A DNA stretch of 64,000 nt from Candidatus Promineifilum breve (GTDB lineage Bacteria; Chloroflexota; Anaerolineae; Promineifilales; Promineifilaceae), in the NCBI RefSeq assembly GCF_900066015.1, contig NZ_LN890655.1:2086726-2150725 (forward strand), in the 5' to 3' direction. The position numbers were made by a program, and so were the translations under genes. The notes beneath the pieces are model-generated. The model was not told where the DNA came from, searched no databases, and saw nothing but the letters and a program-made list of their open reading frames with translations. Numbering within the stretch: position 1 is the stretch's first letter; every line of letters starts with the position of its first letter. Positions 24,220-36,971 of this stretch are shown here, in pieces.

Positions 24220-26202
24220 ATGCACCCGACCGGCATCGGCATCGGTCACGAGGCGTTGGTCGCCGCCTGGCAGGCGTTCATGGAAAACGGCCGGGCGGAG
24301 GAAATCGCCGGCGGCATCGACCCGGCCGTCGTCCGCTCGTGGCGGCGCTGTGTCTACCGCTTCAATCCCCAGTCACGGCCGCGCCCGGCGTCGATCAGCC
24401 GCAACGCGCTCTATTCCATCATTCGGGCGCAGCAAGACCTGATCACCATCGCCACACCCTTCATCGAGGACATCCACCAATTCACCGAAGGGTCGCGCTA
24501 TGCCGTGGCCCTGGCCGACGGCGCGGGCTGCCTGCTCATCATCGGCGGCGACCCGACGGCCGTGGAACAGGCCGGCGCGTTGGGCTTCAGCCAGGGAACT
24601 TACTGGTCGGAGAACAGCGCCGGTACCAACGGGCTGGGGTTGGCCCTGATGGAAGCCATGCCGGTGCAGGTGGTGGGGGCGGAGCACTATTTCAGCTATC
24701 TCCACGAGTTCGTCACCGCCGCCGCGCCCATCCACGACGTGCGCGGCCGGGTGATTGGGCTGTTGGGCATGATCGGGCCGCGCGACCCGGTCACGTCCCA
24801 CACGCTGGGGCTGGTCATGGCGGCGGCGCGGGCCATTGGCAACCAGCTTCAGGCCAACTGGTATCTGGAAGAGGCCAACCAGCACCTGGGCCAGGTCAAC
24901 ACCATCCTGGGGGCCATCGTGGAGGGCGTCATCGTCTGGAACCAGCAGGGCGAAATCCGCCACGTGAACGAGCAGGCGGCCAACATGCTCCAGATCAACC
25001 CGCGCACGGTCGTGGGCCGGCCGCTGGCCGACGTGGTACGGCTGCCGCCGGAACTGGTGACGGCCATCGACGCCGGCGACGAGTTTCGCGATGTGGAGGT
25101 GAGCCTCCAGGCGCTGGGGCGCGACGTGCGCTGCGTGGTGACGCTGCGGCCCATCTTCGAGGCCGGGGCGCAACCGGTCAGCTACGTGGCCCTGCTCAGC
25201 CCCATCGAACACGTGCGCCAGATCGCCCAGCAGCAGTATGGCGCGCAGACCGGCCTGAGCATCGAGGACATCCAGGCTGATTCGCCCGGAATGCGGCGCG
25301 TGGTGCGCCAGAGCCGCACGGCGGCCCGCGGCGCGGCCCCGGTGCTCATCCTGGGCGAGGGCGGCGTGGGCAAGAACCTGCTGGCGCGGGCCATCCACAA
25401 CGACGGGCCGCGGGCCGATAGGCCGTTCATCGACATCAATTGCCGGGCCATCCCCCACGAATTGATGACCCGCGAGATATTGGGGCGCGAGCAGGACACC
25501 AACACCCGCGGCCAGCCCAGCAAATTCGAGTTGGCCGACGGCGGCACGCTGCTGCTCGACCAGATCGAGAACCTGACGCTGGAGCTACAGGCAGCGCTGC
25601 TCCACGTCATCGAGACGCGCCACGTGACCCGGCTGGGCAGCTCCCAACCCATCCCGGTTGACGTGCGCATCGTGGGCGCGACGACGGCCAACCTCGAAGA
25701 GCTAGTGGCCCAGGGCAACTTCCTGTCGCACCTCTATTACCGCTTCGGCGTGTTCAAGATCGACGTGCCGCCGCTGCGCGAACGGGTGGAGGACATCCCT
25801 CTGCTGGCCGAGCGCTTTCTGGCCCGGCAGACGGCGCGCGAGGAGCGGCCCATGTGGATTGAGGATGAGGCGGTGCGCTTTCTGACGCGCTACCCGTGGC
25901 CGGGCAACGTGCGCGAACTGGAGAGCGCGCTGGAGCGAGCCATGAGCCAGAGCCGCGATAGCGTCATCCGGCCGGGCGACCTGCCGGAGATGGTGCGCAA
26001 CGGCCGCGTGCTGAGCGGCCGCCATCCGCTGGCCCAGCCGGTGCTGTCGGTGGACGAAGCCGAGCGCGAGGCCATCTTCCGCGCCGGGTGGGCTTGCAAC
26101 GGCCGGGTGACGGAGATGGCCGGGCTGTTGGGCATCGGCCGCTCGACCCTGTGGCGCAAGATGAGACAGTTGGAAATTTCGCCGTCAATTTTCAAGAATT
26201 GA
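24220..26202 (+). CDS. DhaR/AcoR-like AAA+ transcriptional regulator with degenerate sigma54-contact motif
   Basis: A 660-residue protein: an N-terminal GAF-type sensor (about 30-215), a PAS domain (about 225-330), an AAA+ domain (about 350-590) and a Fis-type helix-turn-helix (about 625-655). Walker A GEGGVGKN is at 379-386, Walker B is LDQI rather than LDEI, and the arginine region PPLRERVED is present. The GAFTGA loop that contacts sigma54 is absent: that part reads REQDTNTRGQPS (423-434). E. coli DhaR, also of this family, acts at a sigma70 promoter, and the same is likely here. It faces the glycerol/dihydroxyacetone genes. Confidence 0.9.
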   Translation: MHPTGIGIGHEALVAAWQAFMENGRAEEIAGGIDPAVVRSWRRCVYRFNPQSRPRPASISRNALYSIIRAQQDLITIATPFIEDIHQFTEGSRYAVALADGAGCLLIIGGDPTAVEQAGALGFSQGTYWSENSAGTNGLGLALMEAMPVQVVGAEHYFSYLHEFVTAAAPIHDVRGRVIGLLGMIGPRDPVTSHTLGLVMAAARAIGNQLQANWYLEEANQHLGQVNTILGAIVEGVIVWNQQGEIRHVNEQAANMLQINPRTVVGRPLADVVRLPPELVTAIDAGDEFRDVEVSLQALGRDVRCVVTLRPIFEAGAQPVSYVALLSPIEHVRQIAQQQYGAQTGLSIEDIQADSPGMRRVVRQSRTAARGAAPVLILGEGGVGKNLLARAIHNDGPRADRPFIDINCRAIPHELMTREILGREQDTNTRGQPSKFELADGGTLLLDQIENLTLELQAALLHVIETRHVTRLGSSQPIPVDVRIVGATTANLEELVAQGNFLSHLYYRFGVFKIDVPPLRERVEDIPLLAERFLARQTAREERPMWIEDEAVRFLTRYPWPGNVRELESALERAMSQSRDSVIRPGDLPEMVRNGRVLSGRHPLAQPVLSVDEAEREAIFRAGWACNGRVTEMAGLLGIGRSTLWRKMRQLEISPSIFKN

Positions 26203-26619: not shown

Positions 26620-27345
26620 ATGAGTGCATATATTGGTGAAGTAATCGGCACAATGCTGCTTATCATCCTCGGCGATGGCGTCGTCGCCAACGTCGTCCTG
26701 GGCAAGACCAAGGGCAACAGCGCGGGCTGGATCGTCATCACCACGGGCTGGGCCTTGGCCGTCTTCGTGGCCGTCATGGTCACCGGCACCATCAGTGGCG
26801 CGCATCTGAACCCGGCCGTCACCGTCGGCCTGGCCGTGGCCGGCAGCTTCAGCTGGGGCCAGGTCCCCGGCTACATCATCGCCCAGCTCGTCGGCGCCTT
26901 CCTGGGCGCGGTCATCGTCTGGTTGGCCTACTACCAGCACTGGGCGGCCACCCCCGACCCCGGCTCGAAGCTGGCCGTCTTCTCGACCGGCCCGGCCATC
27001 CGCAACACGGTCTGGAATCTGGTTACCGAGATCATCGGCACCTTCATGCTGGTCTTCGGCGTGTTGGGCATCCGCGGCGCGGTCATGGGCACCGAAGCGA
27101 TCGACCTGGGCGCGTTGGGCGCTTTGCCGGTGGCCTTCCTGGTGTGGGGCATCGGCCTCTCGTTGGGCGGGCCCACGGGCTATGCCATCAATCCGGCCCG
27201 CGACCTGGGGCCGCGCATCGCCCATTTCCTTCTGCCCATCCCCGGCAAGGGCGGCTCCGACTGGGGCTACTCGTGGATCCCGGTCGTTGGGCCAATCGTG
27301 GGCGGCATCATCGGCGCTCTGTTGTGGGGCATCCTGGGCTGGTAA
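26620..27345 (+). CDS. glpF: Glycerol uptake facilitator (aquaglyceroporin)
   Basis: MIP-family channel of 241 residues with six membrane helices and two half-helices. The NPA boxes are HLNPAVTVG and [11 protein letters not shown]. Asp directly after the second NPAR marks glycerol-conducting members rather than water-selective aquaporins. It heads the glycerol/dihydroxyacetone operon and supplies glycerol or other small polyols to the kinases encoded downstream. Confidence 0.95.
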
Positions 27346-27428: not shown

Positions 27429-28505
27429 ATGAAAAAATTGATCAATGCGGTTCCCGACGTCGTCAAAGAACAACTGGAGGGCATGGCCGCCGCCCACCCC
27501 GATCAACTGAAAGTCCATTACGATGACGCCAACTTCGTCTATCGCGCCGACGCGCCGGTGCCCGGCAAAGTGGCGATTATCTCCGGCGGCGGCAGCGGCC
27601 ACGAGCCGATGCACGGCGGCTTCGTCGGCATGGGCATGCTCGACGCCGCCTGCCCCGGCGAAGTCTTCACCTCGCCCACACCGGTGCAGATGTACGAGGC
27701 GGCCAAGATGGTCAACAGCGGCGCGGGCGTGCTGTTTCTGGTGAAAAACTACACCGGCGACGTGCTCAATTTCGAGACGGCCGCCGAATTGGCCCACGGC
27801 GACGGCATCCCCGTCCAGAACATCCTCATCGACGACGACGTGGCTGTGAAGGACAGCCTCTATACCGCCGGGCGGCGGGGCGTGGGCACCACAGTCCTCG
27901 TCGAGAAGATCGTCGGCGCGGCGGCCGAGGCCGGCTACAACCTGGATCAATGCGCCGACCTGGCCCGCAAGGCCAACAGCTACGGGCGCAGCATGGGCAT
28001 GGCCCTGACTTCCTGCACTGTGCCCGCCGCCGGCAAGCCCACCTTTGAACTGGGCGAGAACGAGATGGAGTTCGGCATCGGCATCCACGGCGAGCCGGGC
28101 CAGAAGCGCATGCCCTTCACCACGGCCGACGAGGTGACCAAGCTGATGGCCGAGGAGATCATCACCGACCCGGCCTACACGCGCGTTGTCCGCGAATGGG
28201 ATCGCGACGCCGGCGACTGGGTCGATATATCGCTGACCGACGAACCCCTCAAGAAGGGCGACCGGGTCATCGCCTTCGTCAACAGCATGGGCGGTACGCC
28301 CGTCTCCGAGCTATACGCCGTCTATCGCAAGCTCGATGAAGTGTGTAAAGCCCACGGCATCGAGATCGCCCGCAATCTGATCGGCCCCTACATTACCTCG
28401 CTGGAAATGGCCGGCATGTCGATCACCCTGCTGAAGGCCGACGACGAAATCCTGAAATTCTGGGACGCGCCGGTGAAGACGCCGGGCTTGCGGTGGGGCG
28501 TCTAA
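27429..28505 (+). CDS. dhaK: PTS-dependent dihydroxyacetone kinase, substrate-binding subunit
   Basis: DhaK of 358 residues binds dihydroxyacetone covalently as a hemiaminal through a histidine, here His220 in [23 protein letters not shown] (from about 53, including His58) forms the rest of the pocket. The C-terminus lacks the fused ATP-binding DhaL domain of ATP-dependent kinases, and a separate dhaL follows three bases later, so this is the PEP-dependent type. The matching phosphodonor is the DhaM fusion encoded at 34431-36971. Confidence 0.96.
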
Positions 28506-28508
28506 ACA

Positions 28509-29138
<630 letters not shown>

Positions 29139-29249: not shown

Positions 29250-30758
29250 ATGGCGGATTACGTTGCAGCAGTCGATCAGGGTACCACCAGTACCCGGTGC
29301 ATGATTTTCAACCATCACGGTTTGCCGGTCGGCATTCACCAGATGGAGCACAAGCAAATCTATCCCCAGGCCGGTTGGGTCGAGCACGATCCGATGGAGA
29401 TCTGGGCCAGGACGCAGGACGTCATCAAGGGCGCGCTGAAGAACGCCGGCATCACGGCCAAGGACATCGCCGCCGTCGGCATCACCAACCAGCGCGAGAC
29501 CACTGTCGTCTGGGACAAGAAGACGGGGCAGCCCTACTACAACGCCATCGTCTGGCAAGACACGCGCACCGACAAGCTCATCAAGGATTTCGAGGGCAAC
29601 GTCGGCCAGAACCGCTTCCGCGATAAGGTCGGGTTGCCGCTGGCGACCTACTTCTCCGGCCCCAAGGTGCGCTGGATTCTGGATAACGTGCCCGAGGCCA
29701 AGGCCGCCGCCGAGCGCGGCGACGCTGTCTTCGGCAACATCGACACCTGGGTCATCTGGAATCTGACCGGCGGCGTCGACGGCGGCGCGCACGTCACCGA
29801 CGTATCCAACGCCAGCCGCACGATGTTGATGAACCTCAAGACGCTGGATTGGGACGCCGACATCGCCCAGATCATGGGCGTGCCCCTCAGCATGCTGCCC
29901 AAGGTCATGCCCTCCTCGGCCGTCTATGGTCATACGCGGGAAAACGGCCCGTTCGGCGGCCGTATCCCCGTCAGCGGCGACCTGGGCGACCAGCAGGCGG
30001 CCACCGTGGGCCAGGCGGCCCTCAGCCCCGGCGAGGCCAAGAACACCTACGGCACCGGCTGCTTCATGATCATGAACACCGGCACCGAGATCGTGCCGTC
30101 GAAGAACGGCCTGCTGACCACCCTGTGCTACAAGTTCGGCGACAAGCCGGCCGTGTATGCCCTGGAAGGCTCCATCGCCATCACCGGCGCGCTGGTGCAG
30201 TGGCTGCGTGACAACCTGAACTTCTTCGACTACAGCCCGCACATCGAGGATTACGCCAAGTCCGTGGAGGATAACGGCGGCGTCTACTTCGTGCCCGCTT
30301 TCTCCGGCCTGTTTGCGCCCTATTGGAAGTCCGACGCCCGCGGGGCCATCGTCGGCCTGACGCGCTACGTCAACAAGGGCCACATCGCCCGCGCCGCGCT
30401 GGAGGCCACCGCCTATCAGACCCGCGAGGTGCTGGACGCCATGAACGCCGACTCCGGCGTGCCGTTGACGGCGTTGAAGGTCGATGGCGGCATGGTCTAC
30501 AACGACACCCTGATGCAGTTCCAGGCCGACGTGCTCGGCGTGCCGGTCATTCGGCCGCAGGTGGCCGAGACGACAGCCCTGGGCGCGGCCTATGCCGCCG
30601 GTCTGGCCGTCGGCTTCTGGAAGAGCGAGGACGACATCCGCGAGAACTGGGCCATGGCCAAGACGTGGGAACCCGACCCCGACAGCAAGGCCGGCACCGA
30701 GAACTACCGGATGTGGAAGAAGGCCGTCACCCGCACCTTCGATTGGGTAGAGCACTGA
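29250..30758 (+). CDS. glpK: Glycerol kinase
   Basis: FGGY-family kinase of 502 residues, typical for GlpK. It phosphorylates glycerol to sn-glycerol 3-phosphate. The N-terminal DQGTTSTR phosphate loop, the substrate segment [11 protein letters not shown] and [31 protein letters not shown] and [10 protein letters not shown] are all present. Residues needed for IIA-Glc inhibition in enterobacteria are not evident. The product feeds GlpA, encoded next. Confidence 0.97.
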
Positions 30759-30881: not shown

Positions 30882-32042
30882 ATGGCGTCATTTCATGCAG
30901 TCATCATCGGCGGCGGCGGGACGGGGGCGGCCGTGGCCCACGACCTGACCCTGCGCGGCTACAAGGTCACGCTGGTCGAGCGCGGCGAGGTCACGTCGGG
31001 CACGACCGGCCGCCACCACGGCCTGCTCCACAGCGGCGCGCGCTATGCCGTGAACGACAAGGAGTCGGCCGTCGAGTGCATCGAGGAGAATATGATCCTG
31101 CGCCGGATCGCGCCCGGCTCATTTGAACTCAACGACGGCTTATTTATTGCCCTGACCGAGGAAGAGGCCGCCTATAGCCACGAATTCATCGAGGCCTGCC
31201 ATGAGTGCGGCATTCCCGCCCGCCGCCTGACGGCCCGCGAAGTGCTGGAGCGCGAGCCGAACGTCAACCCCAAAGTCCTCATGGGCGTCCAGGTTCCCGA
31301 CGCCACGATGGACGCCATGCGCATGCCCCTGCGCTTCTTCGCCACGGCCCAGCACGCCGGGGCGACGATTAAGCCCTATACCGAGGTGGTCGATTTCATC
31401 AAGCGCGGCAACGCCGTCAGCGCCATCCGCGTGCGCGACCACACGACGAATAAGGAGTACGAGATCGGCGGCGACATTTTCATCAGCGCCGCCGGGGCGT
31501 GGAGCGGGCGGGTGGGGGATATGGTCGGCGTCGATGTGCCCATCCGGCCGTCGCCGGGCGTGATGCTGGCCGTGCGCGGCCGGCTGTGCAATATGGTCGT
31601 CAACCGGCTGCACAAATCCGGCGACGGCGACATCATCGTGCCCCAGCGCGCCCTGTCGGTCATCGGCACCAGTTCGTGGGTCGTGGAAGACCCCGATAAT
31701 CTGGGCCTGCCGCAAGACCACATCGACATGATGATCAAGTACGGCTCCGAATTGGTGCCGGGGGTGCGCACGGCCCCCTTCCGCGCGGCCTGGTCGGCGG
31801 CCCGGCCGCTCATCGGCCCGCGCGGGGCCGACACCGGCCGCGAATTGAGCCGCACGTTCAAATGTTTCGACCACGCCGACGAAGGCGTGGAGGGCTTCGT
31901 CACCATCACCGGCGGCAAGGCGACGACCCTGCGCGGCATGGCTGAGACGACGGCCAATGTCGTCTGCCGGAAGATGGGATACGAGGCGCCCTGCGGCACG
32001 CGCGATTTCGTGTTGCTGCCGCATACGGCCTATTATGCCTGA
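30882..32042 (+). CDS. glpA: Glycerol-3-phosphate dehydrogenase flavoprotein, short GlpA type
   Basis: A 386-residue FAD protein with clear similarity to the catalytic part of anaerobic GlpA: IIGGGGTGAAVAHDL, TTGRHHGLLHSGARYAV, VPDATMDAMR, SAAGAWSGRV, SVIGTSSWVVED, RPLIGP and TITGGKATTLRGMAE. E. coli GlpA has about 150 further residues with a Cys-rich [2Fe-2S] BFD domain; this protein stops after CRKMGYEAPCGTRDF. No glpB follows. The next genes encode SdhB-, SdhC- and SdhD-like subunits, so electrons probably leave through these. Confidence 0.9.
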   Translation: MASFHAVIIGGGGTGAAVAHDLTLRGYKVTLVERGEVTSGTTGRHHGLLHSGARYAVNDKESAVECIEENMILRRIAPGSFELNDGLFIALTEEEAAYSHEFIEACHECGIPARRLTAREVLEREPNVNPKVLMGVQVPDATMDAMRMPLRFFATAQHAGATIKPYTEVVDFIKRGNAVSAIRVRDHTTNKEYEIGGDIFISAAGAWSGRVGDMVGVDVPIRPSPGVMLAVRGRLCNMVVNRLHKSGDGDIIVPQRALSVIGTSSWVVEDPDNLGLPQDHIDMMIKYGSELVPGVRTAPFRAAWSAARPLIGPRGADTGRELSRTFKCFDHADEGVEGFVTITGGKATTLRGMAETTANVVCRKMGYEAPCGTRDFVLLPHTAYYA

Positions 32043-32089
32043 GCGCGGGCGAGTAGTGGGGCAGTATTCAGTGGTCTTAGAGAGGACTC

Positions 32090-32812
32090 ATGGCCGAACA
32101 GTTAATCGATTTCAAGGTCTTTCGTTATAAGCAGGGCCAGGCCGAGCCGACGTACCAGACCTTTCGCACGCCGTGCGACGAGAACACCACCGTGCTGGTG
32201 GCCTTGCAGGACATTCGCCGCGATCAGGACAGCTCGCTCATCCTGCGCCATTCCTGCCACCACGCCAGTTGCGGCACGTGCGGGCTGCGCATCAACGGCC
32301 GCGAGGAATTGGGCTGCGTGGTCAAGGTGCTGGAGTTGGGCACAGCGACGGTCACGGTGGAGCCGATGCGCAACATGCCGGTCATCAGCGATCTGGTGGT
32401 CAACATGGCCCCGTTCTACGACCGCTTCAACCGCGCCGGACTGCCCTTCATCCGCGAGAGCGAATATCTGGACGAGGCCGAGGTGGCCGAGGGGCTGGAG
32501 AGCTATTCGCGCTGCGAGAACTGCATCGAGTGTAATTTGTGCGTCTCGGCCTGCCCCATCATGGGCAGCGATGAGTTGTATCTCGGCCCGGCCACGCTGG
32601 CCGCCGTATGGCGCGTGGTCGAGGAGCCGCGCGGGCTAGAGACGCGGCCGTTGCTCGACTGGGTGGATAGCCAGAACGGCTGCTGGCGCTGCCACGTGGC
32701 CTACGAGTGCAACGCGGCCTGCCCGTCGGAGGTCTACCCCGGCGACAAGATCATGGCCCTGCGCCGCGAGTTGACCAAGCGCAAGTTCCGTGGGTTCTTT
32801 GGGAGAAGATGA
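32090..32812 (+). CDS. SdhB/FrdB-like iron-sulfur subunit
   Basis: A 240-residue three-cluster iron-sulfur protein. The [2Fe-2S] ligands are Cys56, 61, 64 and 76 (C-x4-C-x2-C-x11-C). Ferredoxin-like Cys142, 145, 148, 151, 155 and Cys198, 201, 207, 211 bind the [4Fe-4S] and second cluster, as in succinate dehydrogenase and fumarate reductase. No SdhA is encoded nearby; the flavoprotein in the operon is GlpA, 47 bases upstream. It should connect the flavin to the membrane anchors. Whether it belongs to an ordinary succinate dehydrogenase is the main alternative. Confidence 0.9.
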   Translation: MAEQLIDFKVFRYKQGQAEPTYQTFRTPCDENTTVLVALQDIRRDQDSSLILRHSCHHASCGTCGLRINGREELGCVVKVLELGTATVTVEPMRNMPVISDLVVNMAPFYDRFNRAGLPFIRESEYLDEAEVAEGLESYSRCENCIECNLCVSACPIMGSDELYLGPATLAAVWRVVEEPRGLETRPLLDWVDSQNGCWRCHVAYECNAACPSEVYPGDKIMALRRELTKRKFRGFFGRR

Positions 32813-32813
32813 T

Positions 32814-33218
32814 ATGCACGACATTCAACCGACCACCGATCCGGCGCGGCCCAAGTCGCCGTTGCGGGCCTGGTTCGATATTCGCGGCCGGGGGCTGGGG
32901 ACGTTGGCCTTTGCCCTCAATCGCCTGACGGCCATCGGCCTGACGATCTATCTCTTCCTGCATCTGGTCGTGCTGAGTCAGTTGTTGCGCGGCCCGGAGG
33001 GCTGGAACAGCTTCGTGGCCCTGGCCCGCTCGCCGCTGTTCCTGGCGCTCGACGTCGTGCTGCTGTTCGGCGTGGTCTATCACATGTTCAACGGCATCCG
33101 CGTGGCTCTGGTGGGCATGGGCGTGGCCCATCGGCAGCAGCGCGGCTTGTTCTATGGCCTGGTGGGCATCGGCCTGGTCTTGTTCGTCGTTGGGGCAGTC
33201 CTGATCTTCACCAAGTGA
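32814..33218 (+). CDS. SdhC-like cytochrome b membrane anchor subunit
   Basis: A 134-residue protein with three membrane helices. The N-terminal NRLTAIGLTIYLFLH matches the S/N-R-x-T quinone-site helix of SdhC, with His50 in helix 1. YHMFNGIR with His90 matches the S-x-x-Y-H-x-x-x-G-I-R-H heme-ligand helix. It starts one base after the iron-sulfur gene and should carry part of the quinone site and heme b. Confidence 0.85.
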   Translation: MHDIQPTTDPARPKSPLRAWFDIRGRGLGTLAFALNRLTAIGLTIYLFLHLVVLSQLLRGPEGWNSFVALARSPLFLALDVVLLFGVVYHMFNGIRVALVGMGVAHRQQRGLFYGLVGIGLVLFVVGAVLIFTK

Positions 33219-33247
33219 CGCCGCCATTGCGCCAGAGGAGTTAATCG

Positions 33248-33643
33248 ATGGATAACACGATCTCTCGCCGCTCGCTCGATCAAATGGCCGCCCAGCGCGA
33301 CCGCTCCGGCTCCATGTGGCTCGTCCAGGCCATCACCGGGCTGCTGCTGGTGGCCCTGCTGGGCACGCACATGATCGTCCACCACTTCGTCGTCGAGGGC
33401 GGTCTGCGCGACTTCCAGCAAGTGATGGACTACGTATCGAACCCCCTCGTCATGGTCATCGAGATATTATTCGTCATCTGCGCCACGGTCCACGGGCTGC
33501 TGGGGGTGCGCTCGATTCTGGTTGACCTGCGGCCGAGCGCCCGCGCGCTGGGTATCATCGAATGGGGTTTGCGGATCGTGGGCCTGGTCACCATTGTCTA
33601 CGGCATCTATCTGGCCGTGGCCCTGCAACGGATGGCGGGTTAG
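33248..33643 (+). CDS. SdhD-like membrane anchor subunit
   Basis: A 131-residue protein with three helices. Helix 1 contains GTHMIVHHF (His41, 45, 46), and helix 2 ends in VHGLLGVRSILVDL (His82), the pattern of SdhD-type anchors. Together with the preceding gene it gives the two-subunit, six-helix anchor of type A/B or C succinate:quinone oxidoreductases. An AGGAG-like site precedes its ATG. Confidence 0.85.
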   Translation: MDNTISRRSLDQMAAQRDRSGSMWLVQAITGLLLVALLGTHMIVHHFVVEGGLRDFQQVMDYVSNPLVMVIEILFVICATVHGLLGVRSILVDLRPSARALGIIEWGLRIVGLVTIVYGIYLAVALQRMAG

Positions 33644-33645
33644 CC

Positions 33646-33873
33646 ATGACCAAAAAAGCCGCGCCGCCCGCCGCGCCCAAAGAGGAACCATCTCCGCCAA
33701 CGGACAACCGCTGGTACTGGATTCGGACGGCGCTGATCACCGTGTTGACCTTCGCCGTCGTCATGTGGTACGCCTATCCGGCCCGCGGCAACGTCGCCAT
33801 CCTGTGGGCGGGCGGGCTGGCCGCGGCTATTCTGGCCTATTTCGTATTCAGTTATTACAAGCTCTATCGCTAA
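33646..33873 (+). CDS. Small two-helix membrane protein of the GlpA/SdhBCD-like operon
   Basis: Family not recognised. The 75 residues comprise a Lys/Pro/Glu-rich N-terminus, a helix from WYWIRTALITVLTFAVVMWY and a second from ILWAGGLAAAILAYFVFSYY. It begins two bases after the SdhD-like stop, which suggests translational coupling and possibly an accessory subunit of the same membrane complex. Confidence 0.7.
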   Translation: MTKKAAPPAAPKEEPSPPTDNRWYWIRTALITVLTFAVVMWYAYPARGNVAILWAGGLAAAILAYFVFSYYKLYR

Positions 33874-33874
33874 C

Positions 33875-34459
33875 ATGATCACGCGGGTGGGAGACGACGC
33901 TTCGGTCTGGGAAAGCCGCTGGGCGCCTTATGATGAGGCCGTCTATGGGCGCGTCCTGGAGTGGGTGCCGGACGGCGCGGCCGTGCTCGACATCGGCGCC
34001 GGCGATCTGCGGCTGGCGCGGCGGCTGGCGCGGCGGGCGCGAGTGGTCTACGCCATCGAGCAGCACGCCGGCCTGATTGCCGGGCCGCCATTGCCCGACA
34101 ATCTGATCGTCACCATCGGCGACGCCCGCGCCCTGCCCTTTCCGCCGGTCGACGTGGCCGTGCTGTTGATGCGCCATTGCCGCCATTTCGCCCTCTATCG
34201 CCGCAAGCTGGAAGCTGTTGGCTGCGCCCGGCTCATCACCAACGCCCGCTGGGGGCTGGACGTGGAATGGATCGACCTGACGGCCCGGCCGCGGCCCTAT
34301 GCCGGGTTGGCGCTGGGCTGGTACGCCTGCCGCTGCGGCGCGACCGGCTTTCGCCCCGGCCAGCCGGAGGAGCTGACACCTGAACTGGCGGAAACTATTT
34401 TTGAAGTAGACGATTGCCCCGAGTGCTATCATGGTCGGAATCGTTATCGTCTCTCATAG
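33875..34459 (+). CDS. SAM-methyltransferase-like protein with C-terminal cysteine knuckle
   Basis: A 194-residue Rossmann-like protein with a class I methyltransferase motif I (VLDIGAGDLRLARRLA) and post-I acidic residue (VYAIEQH). The usual motif IV is weak. The C-terminal part has CRCGATGF and DCPECYHG, four cysteines that could bind zinc. It overlaps the dhaM start by 29 bases, so the two are translationally coupled. Its substrate and its link to polyol metabolism are unknown. Confidence 0.6.
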   Translation: MITRVGDDASVWESRWAPYDEAVYGRVLEWVPDGAAVLDIGAGDLRLARRLARRARVVYAIEQHAGLIAGPPLPDNLIVTIGDARALPFPPVDVAVLLMRHCRHFALYRRKLEAVGCARLITNARWGLDVEWIDLTARPRPYAGLALGWYACRCGATGFRPGQPEELTPELAETIFEVDDCPECYHGRNRYRLS

Positions 34460-36971
34460 CGCCCGGTTGGCCGAGGGGGTGCGCGAGCTGGCCCAGCAGA
34501 TGACGCAGGGGCGTGTACCGCTGGCCCTCGCCGGGGGCCTCGATGACCCCGAACACCCCATCGGCACCGACACCATGAAGGTACTGGCGGCCATCGACGC
34601 CGTCTATAGCCCCGACGGCGTGGTGGTGCTCATGGATTTAGGCAGCGCCCTGCTGAGCGCCGAGACGGCATTGGAGTTTCTGCCCGACGATCGGCGCGGC
34701 CACGTCTTCCTGAGCCGGGCGCCGCTGGTGGAAGGGGCGCTGGCCGCCGCCGTCCAATCCATGATTGGCGCGCCCGTGGCCCAGGTGCTGGCCGAGGCCG
34801 AGAGCGCGCTGGGCGCGAAACAGGAGCAACTGGGCGGCGCGGCCGAACCATCCCCGGCCGCCGCCCCACCGCCCCCCGCCGAACCGGCCGCCGAGCAAAT
34901 CACCCTGCTGGTGGGCAACCGCCTGGGTCTCCACGCCCGCCCGGCGGCCCGCTTCGTCGCCACCGCCGCGCGCTACGAGGCCGACGTGCGCGTGCGCAAG
35001 GGGGACAAATCGGCCAATGCCAAGAGCATGAACCAGGTCGCCATTCTCGGCGTGCGCCAGGGGGACGCCATCGTCGTCAGCGCCGCCGGCCCCGACGCCG
35101 CCGCCGTGCTGGCCGCCCTCTCTGCTCTGGCCGCCGACAACTTCGGCGACCCGCAAGATACGAGCGATGAGCAACGAGCTACAAGTGCGACGACGATCCC
35201 CATCCCCCCTGCCCCCCTGCTCCCCCGCTCCCCTGCTCCGCCCACCGACGCCTTGCCCGGCATCGCCGCCTCCCCCGGCGTGGCCGTAGGGCCGGCGGTG
35301 CTCTACCGGCCGCGCCTGCCGGAGGTGATCGCCCGGCTGGTGGACGACCCGGCGGCCGAATGGCAACGCCTGTTGGATGCCATCGCCGCCGCGCGCCAGG
35401 AGATCGAAGCGCTGCATCGCCACGCGCTGGGTCAGGTCGGCCGCGAGGAGGCGGCCATCTTCGAGGCCCACCTGCTCTTCCTGGAAGACCCGACCACGCT
35501 CGACGCCGCGCGGGCCACGATATTGGCCGAGTCGCTCAACGCCGAGGCCGCCTGGCAGCGCGAGACGGAGGCGCTGGCCGCGACCTTCGCCGAACTGGAA
35601 GACGCCTATCTGCGCGCCCGCGCCGCCGACATCGAGGACGTGGCCCGCCGCGTACTGCGCCGTCTGATGGGCGTCGCCCCGCCGGCCCTCAATTTTGCCG
35701 CGCCGTCGGTGCTCATCGCCGCCGATTTATCGCCGTCGGACACGGCGCGGCTCGATCGGGCGCAGGTGCTGGCGATCTGCACCGAGTTGGGCGCGGCCAC
35801 GGCCCACAGCGCCATACTGGCCCGCGCGCTGGGCATTCCGGCCGTCGTCGGCCTAGGCCCAAACGTGTGGCAGGTGGCCGACGGGCAGCGCGTGGCCGTC
35901 GATGGCGACGCCGGGGCGCTATGGCCGCAACCGGACGAGGCGCAACTGGCCGACTTCAACGCCCGGCGCGCGGCGTGGCTGGCCGACCAGCGCCGGGCGC
36001 AGGCTGCCGGGCAGGCCGCGGCCGTCACCCGCGACGGCCACGCCATCGAGATCGCCGCCAACATCGGCGGCCCCCACGATGTCGGCCCGGCTTTGGCCTA
36101 TGGGGCCGAGGGCGTGGGCCTGTTCCGCACCGAGTTCCTGTTCATGGATCGGCCGGCCGCGCCCAGCGAAGCGGAGCAACTGGCGGCCTACCGGCAGGCG
36201 GCCCGGCTGGTGGGCGACCGGCCGCTGATCATCCGCACCCTCGACGTGGGCGGCGACAAGCCGCTGCCCTATCTCGACCTGGGCCAGGAGGCCAACCCGT
36301 TTCTGGGCTGGCGGGCCATTCGTTTCTGCCTGGTCCGGCCCGACATTTTCATGCCGCAACTGCGGGCCATCCTGCGGGCGGGCGTCGATGAGGACGGCAC
36401 GCGGCGCAACGTGCAGATCATGTTCCCGATGATCGGCGCGCCAGACGAGTTGCGCGCGGCGCGGGCCATGCTGGAGCGCGCCGCCGACGAACTGCGGGCC
36501 GAGGGGCTGCCCTTCGCCGAGGACATGGCCGTGGGGATCATGATCGAAGTGCCGTCGGCCGTGGCCGTGGCCGACCTGCTGGCCCGCGAGGTCGATTTCT
36601 TCAGCATCGGCACCAACGACCTGACCCAGTACGTCATGGCCGCCGACCGGGGCAACGCCCGCGTGGCCGGGCTGGCCGACGCCTTCCAGCCCGCGGTGTT
36701 GCGGCTGGTGCGCGACGCGGCCGTGGCCGCCCACGCGGCGGGCATCTGGATCGGCATGTGCGGCGAACTGGCCGGCAACCCCCTGGCGACGCCGCTGCTG
36801 CTGGGGCTGGGGCTGGACGAGTTGAGCATGAGCGCCCCGGCCATCCCGGCGGTCAAGGCCGCGGTGCGCGAGATGACGCTGGATGAGGCGCGGCGGATCG
36901 CCGGGGCGGTGTTGGCGTTGGATTCGGCGGAGGCGGTGAGGGGCTATTTGAGCCGGCTGGGGTCGGAATGA
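34431..36971 (+). CDS. dhaM: DhaM: IIA(Man-type)-HPr-Enzyme I fusion
   Basis: An 846-residue multiphosphoryl transfer protein that re-phosphorylates ADP on DhaL. Domain 1 (1-125) is the mannose-type IIA of DhaM with His9 in IVSHSARLAEG. Domain 2 (about 156-237) is HPr with His168 in GLHARPAARF. Domain 3 (about 275-846) is a complete Enzyme I with His459 (TAHSAIL) and the PEP-binding half (VGLFRTEFLFMD, TLDVGGDKPLPY, FSIGTNDLTQY, IGMCGELAG). Enterobacterial DhaM has only the N-terminal part of Enzyme I. The linker at about 245-272 contains a CCCCTGC-type repeat. Confidence 0.95.
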   Translation: MVGIVIVSHSARLAEGVRELAQQMTQGRVPLALAGGLDDPEHPIGTDTMKVLAAIDAVYSPDGVVVLMDLGSALLSAETALEFLPDDRRGHVFLSRAPLVEGALAAAVQSMIGAPVAQVLAEAESALGAKQEQLGGAAEPSPAAAPPPPAEPAAEQITLLVGNRLGLHARPAARFVATAARYEADVRVRKGDKSANAKSMNQVAILGVRQGDAIVVSAAGPDAAAVLAALSALAADNFGDPQDTSDEQRATSATTIPIPPAPLLPRSPAPPTDALPGIAASPGVAVGPAVLYRPRLPEVIARLVDDPAAEWQRLLDAIAAARQEIEALHRHALGQVGREEAAIFEAHLLFLEDPTTLDAARATILAESLNAEAAWQRETEALAATFAELEDAYLRARAADIEDVARRVLRRLMGVAPPALNFAAPSVLIAADLSPSDTARLDRAQVLAICTELGAATAHSAILARALGIPAVVGLGPNVWQVADGQRVAVDGDAGALWPQPDEAQLADFNARRAAWLADQRRAQAAGQAAAVTRDGHAIEIAANIGGPHDVGPALAYGAEGVGLFRTEFLFMDRPAAPSEAEQLAAYRQAARLVGDRPLIIRTLDVGGDKPLPYLDLGQEANPFLGWRAIRFCLVRPDIFMPQLRAILRAGVDEDGTRRNVQIMFPMIGAPDELRAARAMLERAADELRAEGLPFAEDMAVGIMIEVPSAVAVADLLAREVDFFSIGTNDLTQYVMAADRGNARVAGLADAFQPAVLRLVRDAAVAAHAAGIWIGMCGELAGNPLATPLLLGLGLDELSMSAPAIPAVKAAVREMTLDEARRIAGAVLALDSAEAVRGYLSRLGSE

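Follow-up and report, generated by a model that had tools for sequence, protein, structure and literature searches.

How do electrons from glycerol 3-phosphate (G3P) reach the membrane when a glycerol operon carries glpA followed by genes of the succinate dehydrogenase type, with neither glpB nor glpC? This question is raised by the genome of Candidatus Promineifilum breve (5.03 Mb, 99.96% complete), in a stretch of 64,000 nucleotides analysed as a whole and called the window below. We propose that glpA, sdhB, sdhC and sdhD encode one complex II-like G3P:(mena)quinone oxidoreductase. We infer both the complex and its activity, and we give this reading a probability of roughly 0.86.

A glycerol operon with complex II-type genes

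The cluster runs in the order glpF-dhaK-dhaL-glpK-glpA-sdhB-sdhC-sdhD-(two-helix ORF)-methyltransferase-dhaM (Table 1), and the GAF-PAS-sigma54-HTH gene ahead of it is its probable regulator. The sequence-only reading had described a GlpA core that stops before the BFD domain, no glpB or glpC behind it, an SdhB-type subunit and two His-bearing SdhC/SdhD-type anchors instead, a two-helix ORF two bases further on, and no SdhA. This description holds: the protein ends at residue 386 and its profile match at position 378 of 530, a profile search of the window genes finds no SdhA, GlpB or GlpC in the stretch, the iron-sulfur subunit matches dhsB, both anchors match Sdh_cyt and succ_dehyd_cytB and carry conserved His residues, and the ORF starts at 33646, after the sdhD stop. 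GlpK and GlpF had been placed just upstream; both are indeed upstream, but dhaK and dhaL sit between glpF and glpK. By tblastn the small ORF has homologues only within the genus, and comparable two-TM ORFs of 72-103 aa follow sdhD in several other genera (other Anaerolineae loci). Its product may be an accessory or fifth subunit.

Table 1. Genes of the glycerol cluster in the window, with the matches and conservation that identify them.
Feature	Position	Strand	Evidence and conservation
DhaR-like GAF-PAS-sigma54-HTH regulator (probable)	24220..26202	+	Pfam domains; kept upstream in Promineifilum relatives
glpF-type MIP glycerol channel	26620..27345	+	TIGR00861 above cut-off; 34/40 related loci
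dhaK, dihydroxyacetone kinase subunit	27429..28505	+	TIGR02363, 475 bits; 36/41 related loci
dhaL, dihydroxyacetone kinase subunit	28509..29138	+	TIGR02365, 261 bits; 38/45 related loci
glpK, glycerol kinase, G3P supply	29250..30758	+	TIGR01311, 745 bits; upstream in 51/55 related loci
Short glpA, 386 aa; FAD subunit of the DAAO fold, BFD absent	30882..32042	+	TIGR03377, 2-378/530
sdhB-like three-cluster iron-sulfur subunit, 240 aa	32090..32812	+	dhsB, 2e-52
sdhC-like membrane anchor, 134 aa	32814..33218	+	Sdh_cyt, 9e-14; TM His50, His90; Arg37
sdhD-like membrane anchor, 131 aa	33248..33643	+	Sdh_cyt, 2e-9; TM His41 (His46), His82
Small two-TM protein, 75 aa	33646..33873	+	Start two bases past sdhD stop codon
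Small methyltransferase-like gene	33875..34459	+	Weak Methyltransf_25; downstream of sdhD in 24/59 related loci
dhaM-like phosphotransferase, EIIA-man + HPr + enzyme I fusion	34431..36971	+	Pfam domains; downstream in 42/59 related loci

A GlpA cut down to its catalytic core

The flavoprotein is 40% identical to E. coli GlpA and shares with the GlpABC system the catalytic core and a glycerol operon. In the alignment, E. coli GlpA runs on into a cysteine-rich BFD domain, which the window protein lacks together with its four Cys; because this C-terminal third is absent, the protein scores below the TIGR03377 cut-off. GlpB and GlpC are missing too, GlpB genome-wide (no TIGR03378 match in the source genome) and GlpC at the locus. 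In a tree, short GlpA stands apart from long GlpA, E. coli GlpA and GlpD with 100/100 support.

The invariant R54, Y55, R308 and K346 of short GlpA align with R54, Y55, R317 and K354 of E. coli GlpD, which we take to be G3P-site residues. His233 of GlpD was tried as a further marker and set aside, its position being conserved neither in E. coli GlpA nor in the hybrid GlpA. The AF2 model (pLDDT 88) finds its best PDB matches among GlpO and GlpD structures. These proteins share with short GlpA the DAAO fold and the arginines, tyrosine and lysine of the G3P site, and differ in having no Fe-S partner subunit.

The source genome also has a separate GlpD-like gene (C1, ~944-947.5 kb; L021:3091-6530), whose product ends in a C-terminal hydrophobic helix and which adjoins a gene whose product was assigned by eye as a GlcD/alkyl-DHAP-synthase-like FAD oxidase. 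The complex is therefore not the sole candidate G3P dehydrogenase of this organism.

An iron-sulfur and cytochrome b module of the complex II type

All eleven cluster Cys of the SdhB-like subunit, those of the 2Fe-2S, 4Fe-4S and 3Fe-4S centres, are invariant in the alignment of its relatives, so that ligands for all three clusters are present as in complex II. Its AF2 model, with a pLDDT of 78 and a poor stretch at 120-144, matches E. coli FrdB and SdhB, and the best named match of the protein, among the matches listed, is 87% in Promineifilum MAGs (Chloroflexota). In trees, the SdhB-like proteins form a clade of their own with 100/100 support, apart from canonical SdhB and FrdB and from the same genome's own SdhB (45 versus 27 sequences); the split recurs at 100/100 after other SdhB types are added (27 versus 40 sequences). 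There is thus no tight grouping with true SdhB, an outcome that would have spoken against the sequence-only reading. The [2Fe-2S]-loop signature CxH[AG]SC was considered as the mark of an altered flavoprotein interface and dropped, because canonical Chloroflexota SdhB also has His there and because the sample was biased by the scan patterns.

In the SdhC-like anchor, H50, H90 and the quinone-site Arg37 are each kept in 36/36 sequences; in the SdhD-like anchor, H41 and H82 are kept in 29/29 and H46 in 28/29. Trp164 of SdhB and Tyr83 of SdhD, presumably quinone-site residues in E. coli, are not conserved in the hybrid subunits. The His pairs (SdhC H50/H90, SdhD H41/H82) would serve as bis-His ligands and fit a type A cytochrome b, with two anchors and probably two hemes. 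Type A complex II is defined by just these two features (PMC10739449). The window system would share with it the three-cluster subunit and two anchors with four transmembrane His, and differ in having a DAAO-superfamily flavoprotein instead of SdhA.

The anchor may vary, since in four loci of peatland Chloroflexi (L045, L110, L113, L118) glpA and the sdhB-like gene stand without recognisable sdhCD and are followed by a PanE/ApbA-like reductase and by plsY (G3P acyltransferase). These are possibly an anchor-free variant tied to lipid synthesis.

A separate succinate dehydrogenase in the same genome

Could the module instead be a second SDH/FRD membrane module, which serves the SdhA of the genome in trans and adjoins glpA merely by operon packing? 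The SdhB-like protein is, after all, a clear member of the dhsB family, and the genome has a single SdhA gene, at C1:630734-632491 on the contig that carries the window. Yet this gene is already provided for. A genome search for a separate sdhA with another sdhBC set, a check that the sequence-only reading called for, found it in a full sdhCDAB operon, preceded by sdhC and sdhD and followed by an sdhB of its own. Because the genome has its own sdhCDAB, the situation of a lone sdhA with only the SdhBCD of the window does not arise, and at the window locus GlpA alone occupies the upstream place.

The distribution of the genes tells against service in trans as well. The SdhB-like protein occurs in 10/52 genomes of the family and in 11/400 drawn from the phylum, and GlpA adjoins its gene in 18/18 loci fetched from these samples; most of the 18 carry the complete glycerol operon. 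Scanning GTDB genomes yielded 178 relatives, of which the best 80 (Chloroflexota, Actinomycetota) were kept; no archaeal loci were among the scan matches listed. MAG contigs are short; of the best 80 loci, 68 have at least 1.2 kb upstream, and in 67/68 the gene immediately before the SdhB-like one encodes short GlpA. SdhC (70/76) and SdhD (63/70) are near-constant neighbours in this set, as is GlpK (51/55), while SdhA is found beside the gene at 0/80 loci. These loci were picked via the SdhB-like gene. The arrangement is far beyond chance. The lone exception, L097, has the SdhB-like and SdhC-like proteins fused (L097:1383-2549, 388 aa), with no glpA in 1.4 kb upstream. Among 396 Actinomycetota genomes drawn, 12 carry glpA-sdhBCD, four of which were already among the 80, and in 12/12 GlpA immediately precedes the SdhB-like gene. 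SdhA lies elsewhere in 21/22 genomes with short GlpA or the SdhB-like gene (the exception is 68% complete), and GlpB is missing from 21/22 of these hybrid genomes. One genome (L047 and L112, G449:C214) holds a canonical-type glpA with glpB and a hybrid glpA-sdhBCD within ~8 kb.

GlpA and the SdhB-like subunit are inherited together

Starting from GlpA is the less biased direction, and we searched 121 genomes of the phylum in this way. The loci hold short GlpA (386-395 aa, 49-100% identity to the window GlpA), long BFD-containing GlpA (514-585 aa, 38-42%) and one divergent protein of 525 aa. An SdhB-like gene is directly downstream in 5/6 short and 0/23 long GlpA, and a recognisable GlpB is in the flank of 16/23 long GlpA loci. 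The sixth short GlpA (G088, L207) stands alone, and a different contig of its genome carries an SdhB-like gene from the hybrid clade (L208:4374-5108, G088:C33), which has neither sdhA nor sdhCD nor glpA as a neighbour. The pair is thus retained even when unlinked. Of 13 loci with other types of SdhB, most have an SdhA-like gene next door; with the separate 100/100 clade and the empty count for SdhA, these findings make service to SdhA in trans very improbable. At one locus (L218:4783-5496), an SdhB homologue without the Cys of the 2Fe-2S site adjoins an SdhA-like protein of 545 aa.

Pairwise distances of GlpA and of the SdhB-like protein correlate at 0.91 across the 28 loci with seven operon genes and at 0.86 across 46 loci (range 0.84-0.91). 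The corresponding values are 0.59 and 0.44 for GlpA against GlpK, and 0.68 and 0.51 for the SdhB-like protein against GlpK. Partial on GlpK, the first correlation is still 0.80-0.82, reached by 0/2000 Mantel permutations, and in the near clade taken separately the value is 0.85, versus 0.70 for GlpA and GlpK. SdhC and SdhD, both short and divergent, track the SdhB-like protein less than GlpA does. GlpA and the SdhB-like protein are specifically inherited together, a result that does not imply contact between them.

Discussion

We envision that GlpK would supply G3P and that short GlpA, given its active-site residues, would oxidise it to DHAP on FAD. Electrons would then pass from the FAD to the 2Fe-2S, 4Fe-4S and 3Fe-4S centres of the SdhB-like subunit, rather than through a BFD cluster, GlpB and GlpC, and on to quinone, at a site to which the SdhC/SdhD-type anchors contribute, probably beside two b hemes. 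The DHAP made on this route would join that from DhaKLM. With GlpA in the place of SdhA, electrons from glycerol breakdown would thus go directly to membrane quinone. The proposal that GlpA replaces SdhA, made from the DNA letters, has come through the tests run (separate sdhCDAB, own SdhB-like clade, no GlpB, co-inheritance), with complex and activity at the level of inference.

The same complex might run backwards, using menaquinol to turn DHAP into the G3P needed in lipid synthesis, and plsY beside glpA-sdhB in some peatland Chloroflexi would suit this direction. We find it very unlikely: the usual neighbours, a glycerol channel, glycerol kinase and DHA kinase, are a catabolic set, and the reaction would be uphill, because the DHAP/G3P couple lies ~0.1 V below menaquinone. 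That short GlpA acts alone, as a soluble oxidase (type 2 GlpO-like) or a peripheral dehydrogenase, and the Sdh-like genes serve something else, is scarcely credible: its model resembles GlpO and GlpD, its length equals that of Mycoplasma GlpO (4x9m) and the Sulfolobus G3PDH by itself reduces quinone in vitro (PMC11962113), but the type 2 GlpO profile scores far below the GlpA profile, and it would be left unexplained why the protein is nearly always paired, and inherited, with the SdhB-like one.

We return to a GlpA seated on a complex II-type module. The sequence-only reading knew of no description of such a complex; this is correct for bacteria as far as the open-access literature goes, and not for archaea. 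Archaea related to Thermofilum have sdhB, sdhC and sdhD counterparts behind glpA, and a GlpA-SdhBCD complex has been drawn (Schmerling et al. 2025, Commun Biol, PMC11962113, Fig. 9b), a membrane G3P dehydrogenase being proposed for Thermofilum pendens and relatives from synteny only (PMC11962113). The architecture is therefore not categorically new, and we found no other description in the literature covered. The window has the gene order of the Thermofilum type as given in that text, glpA-sdhB-sdhC-sdhD with sdhBCD counterparts replacing glpB and glpC; the likeness is one of gene order, and the system here is bacterial. The Sulfolobus acidocaldarius GlpA-CoxG (PMC11962113) likewise joins a GlpA lacking BFD to a substitute partner in the membrane, in its case a small CoxG-like protein instead of an Fe-S and cytochrome b module. 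What is new is the bacterial lineage in two phyla, with its trees, co-inheritance and heme ligands. Bacterial glpA is said to co-occur consistently with glpB and glpC (PMC11962113), a statement that the occurrence in two bacterial phyla contradicts.

A G3P-oxidising GlpA thus appears to have taken the place of complex II SdhA in many Chloroflexota and in some Actinomycetota. Such an enzyme would be the first G3P dehydrogenase of bacteria to be assembled on complex II components, and it would extend to bacteria a diversity that the 2025 archaeal survey (PMC11962113) gave as absent there. A class of G3P:menaquinone oxidoreductases in which two hemes form a wire across the membrane, coupling glycerol oxidation to proton motive force in two bacterial phyla, is a tentative and rather doubtful extension; if true, the SdhBCD module would be a general socket for unrelated flavoproteins. 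Already on our main reading, this electron module can accept a flavoprotein of another fold family. The top family models label this set as succinate dehydrogenase subunits plus a partial GlpA; glycerol respiration will therefore probably be misread in uncultured Chloroflexota, Promineifilum among them.
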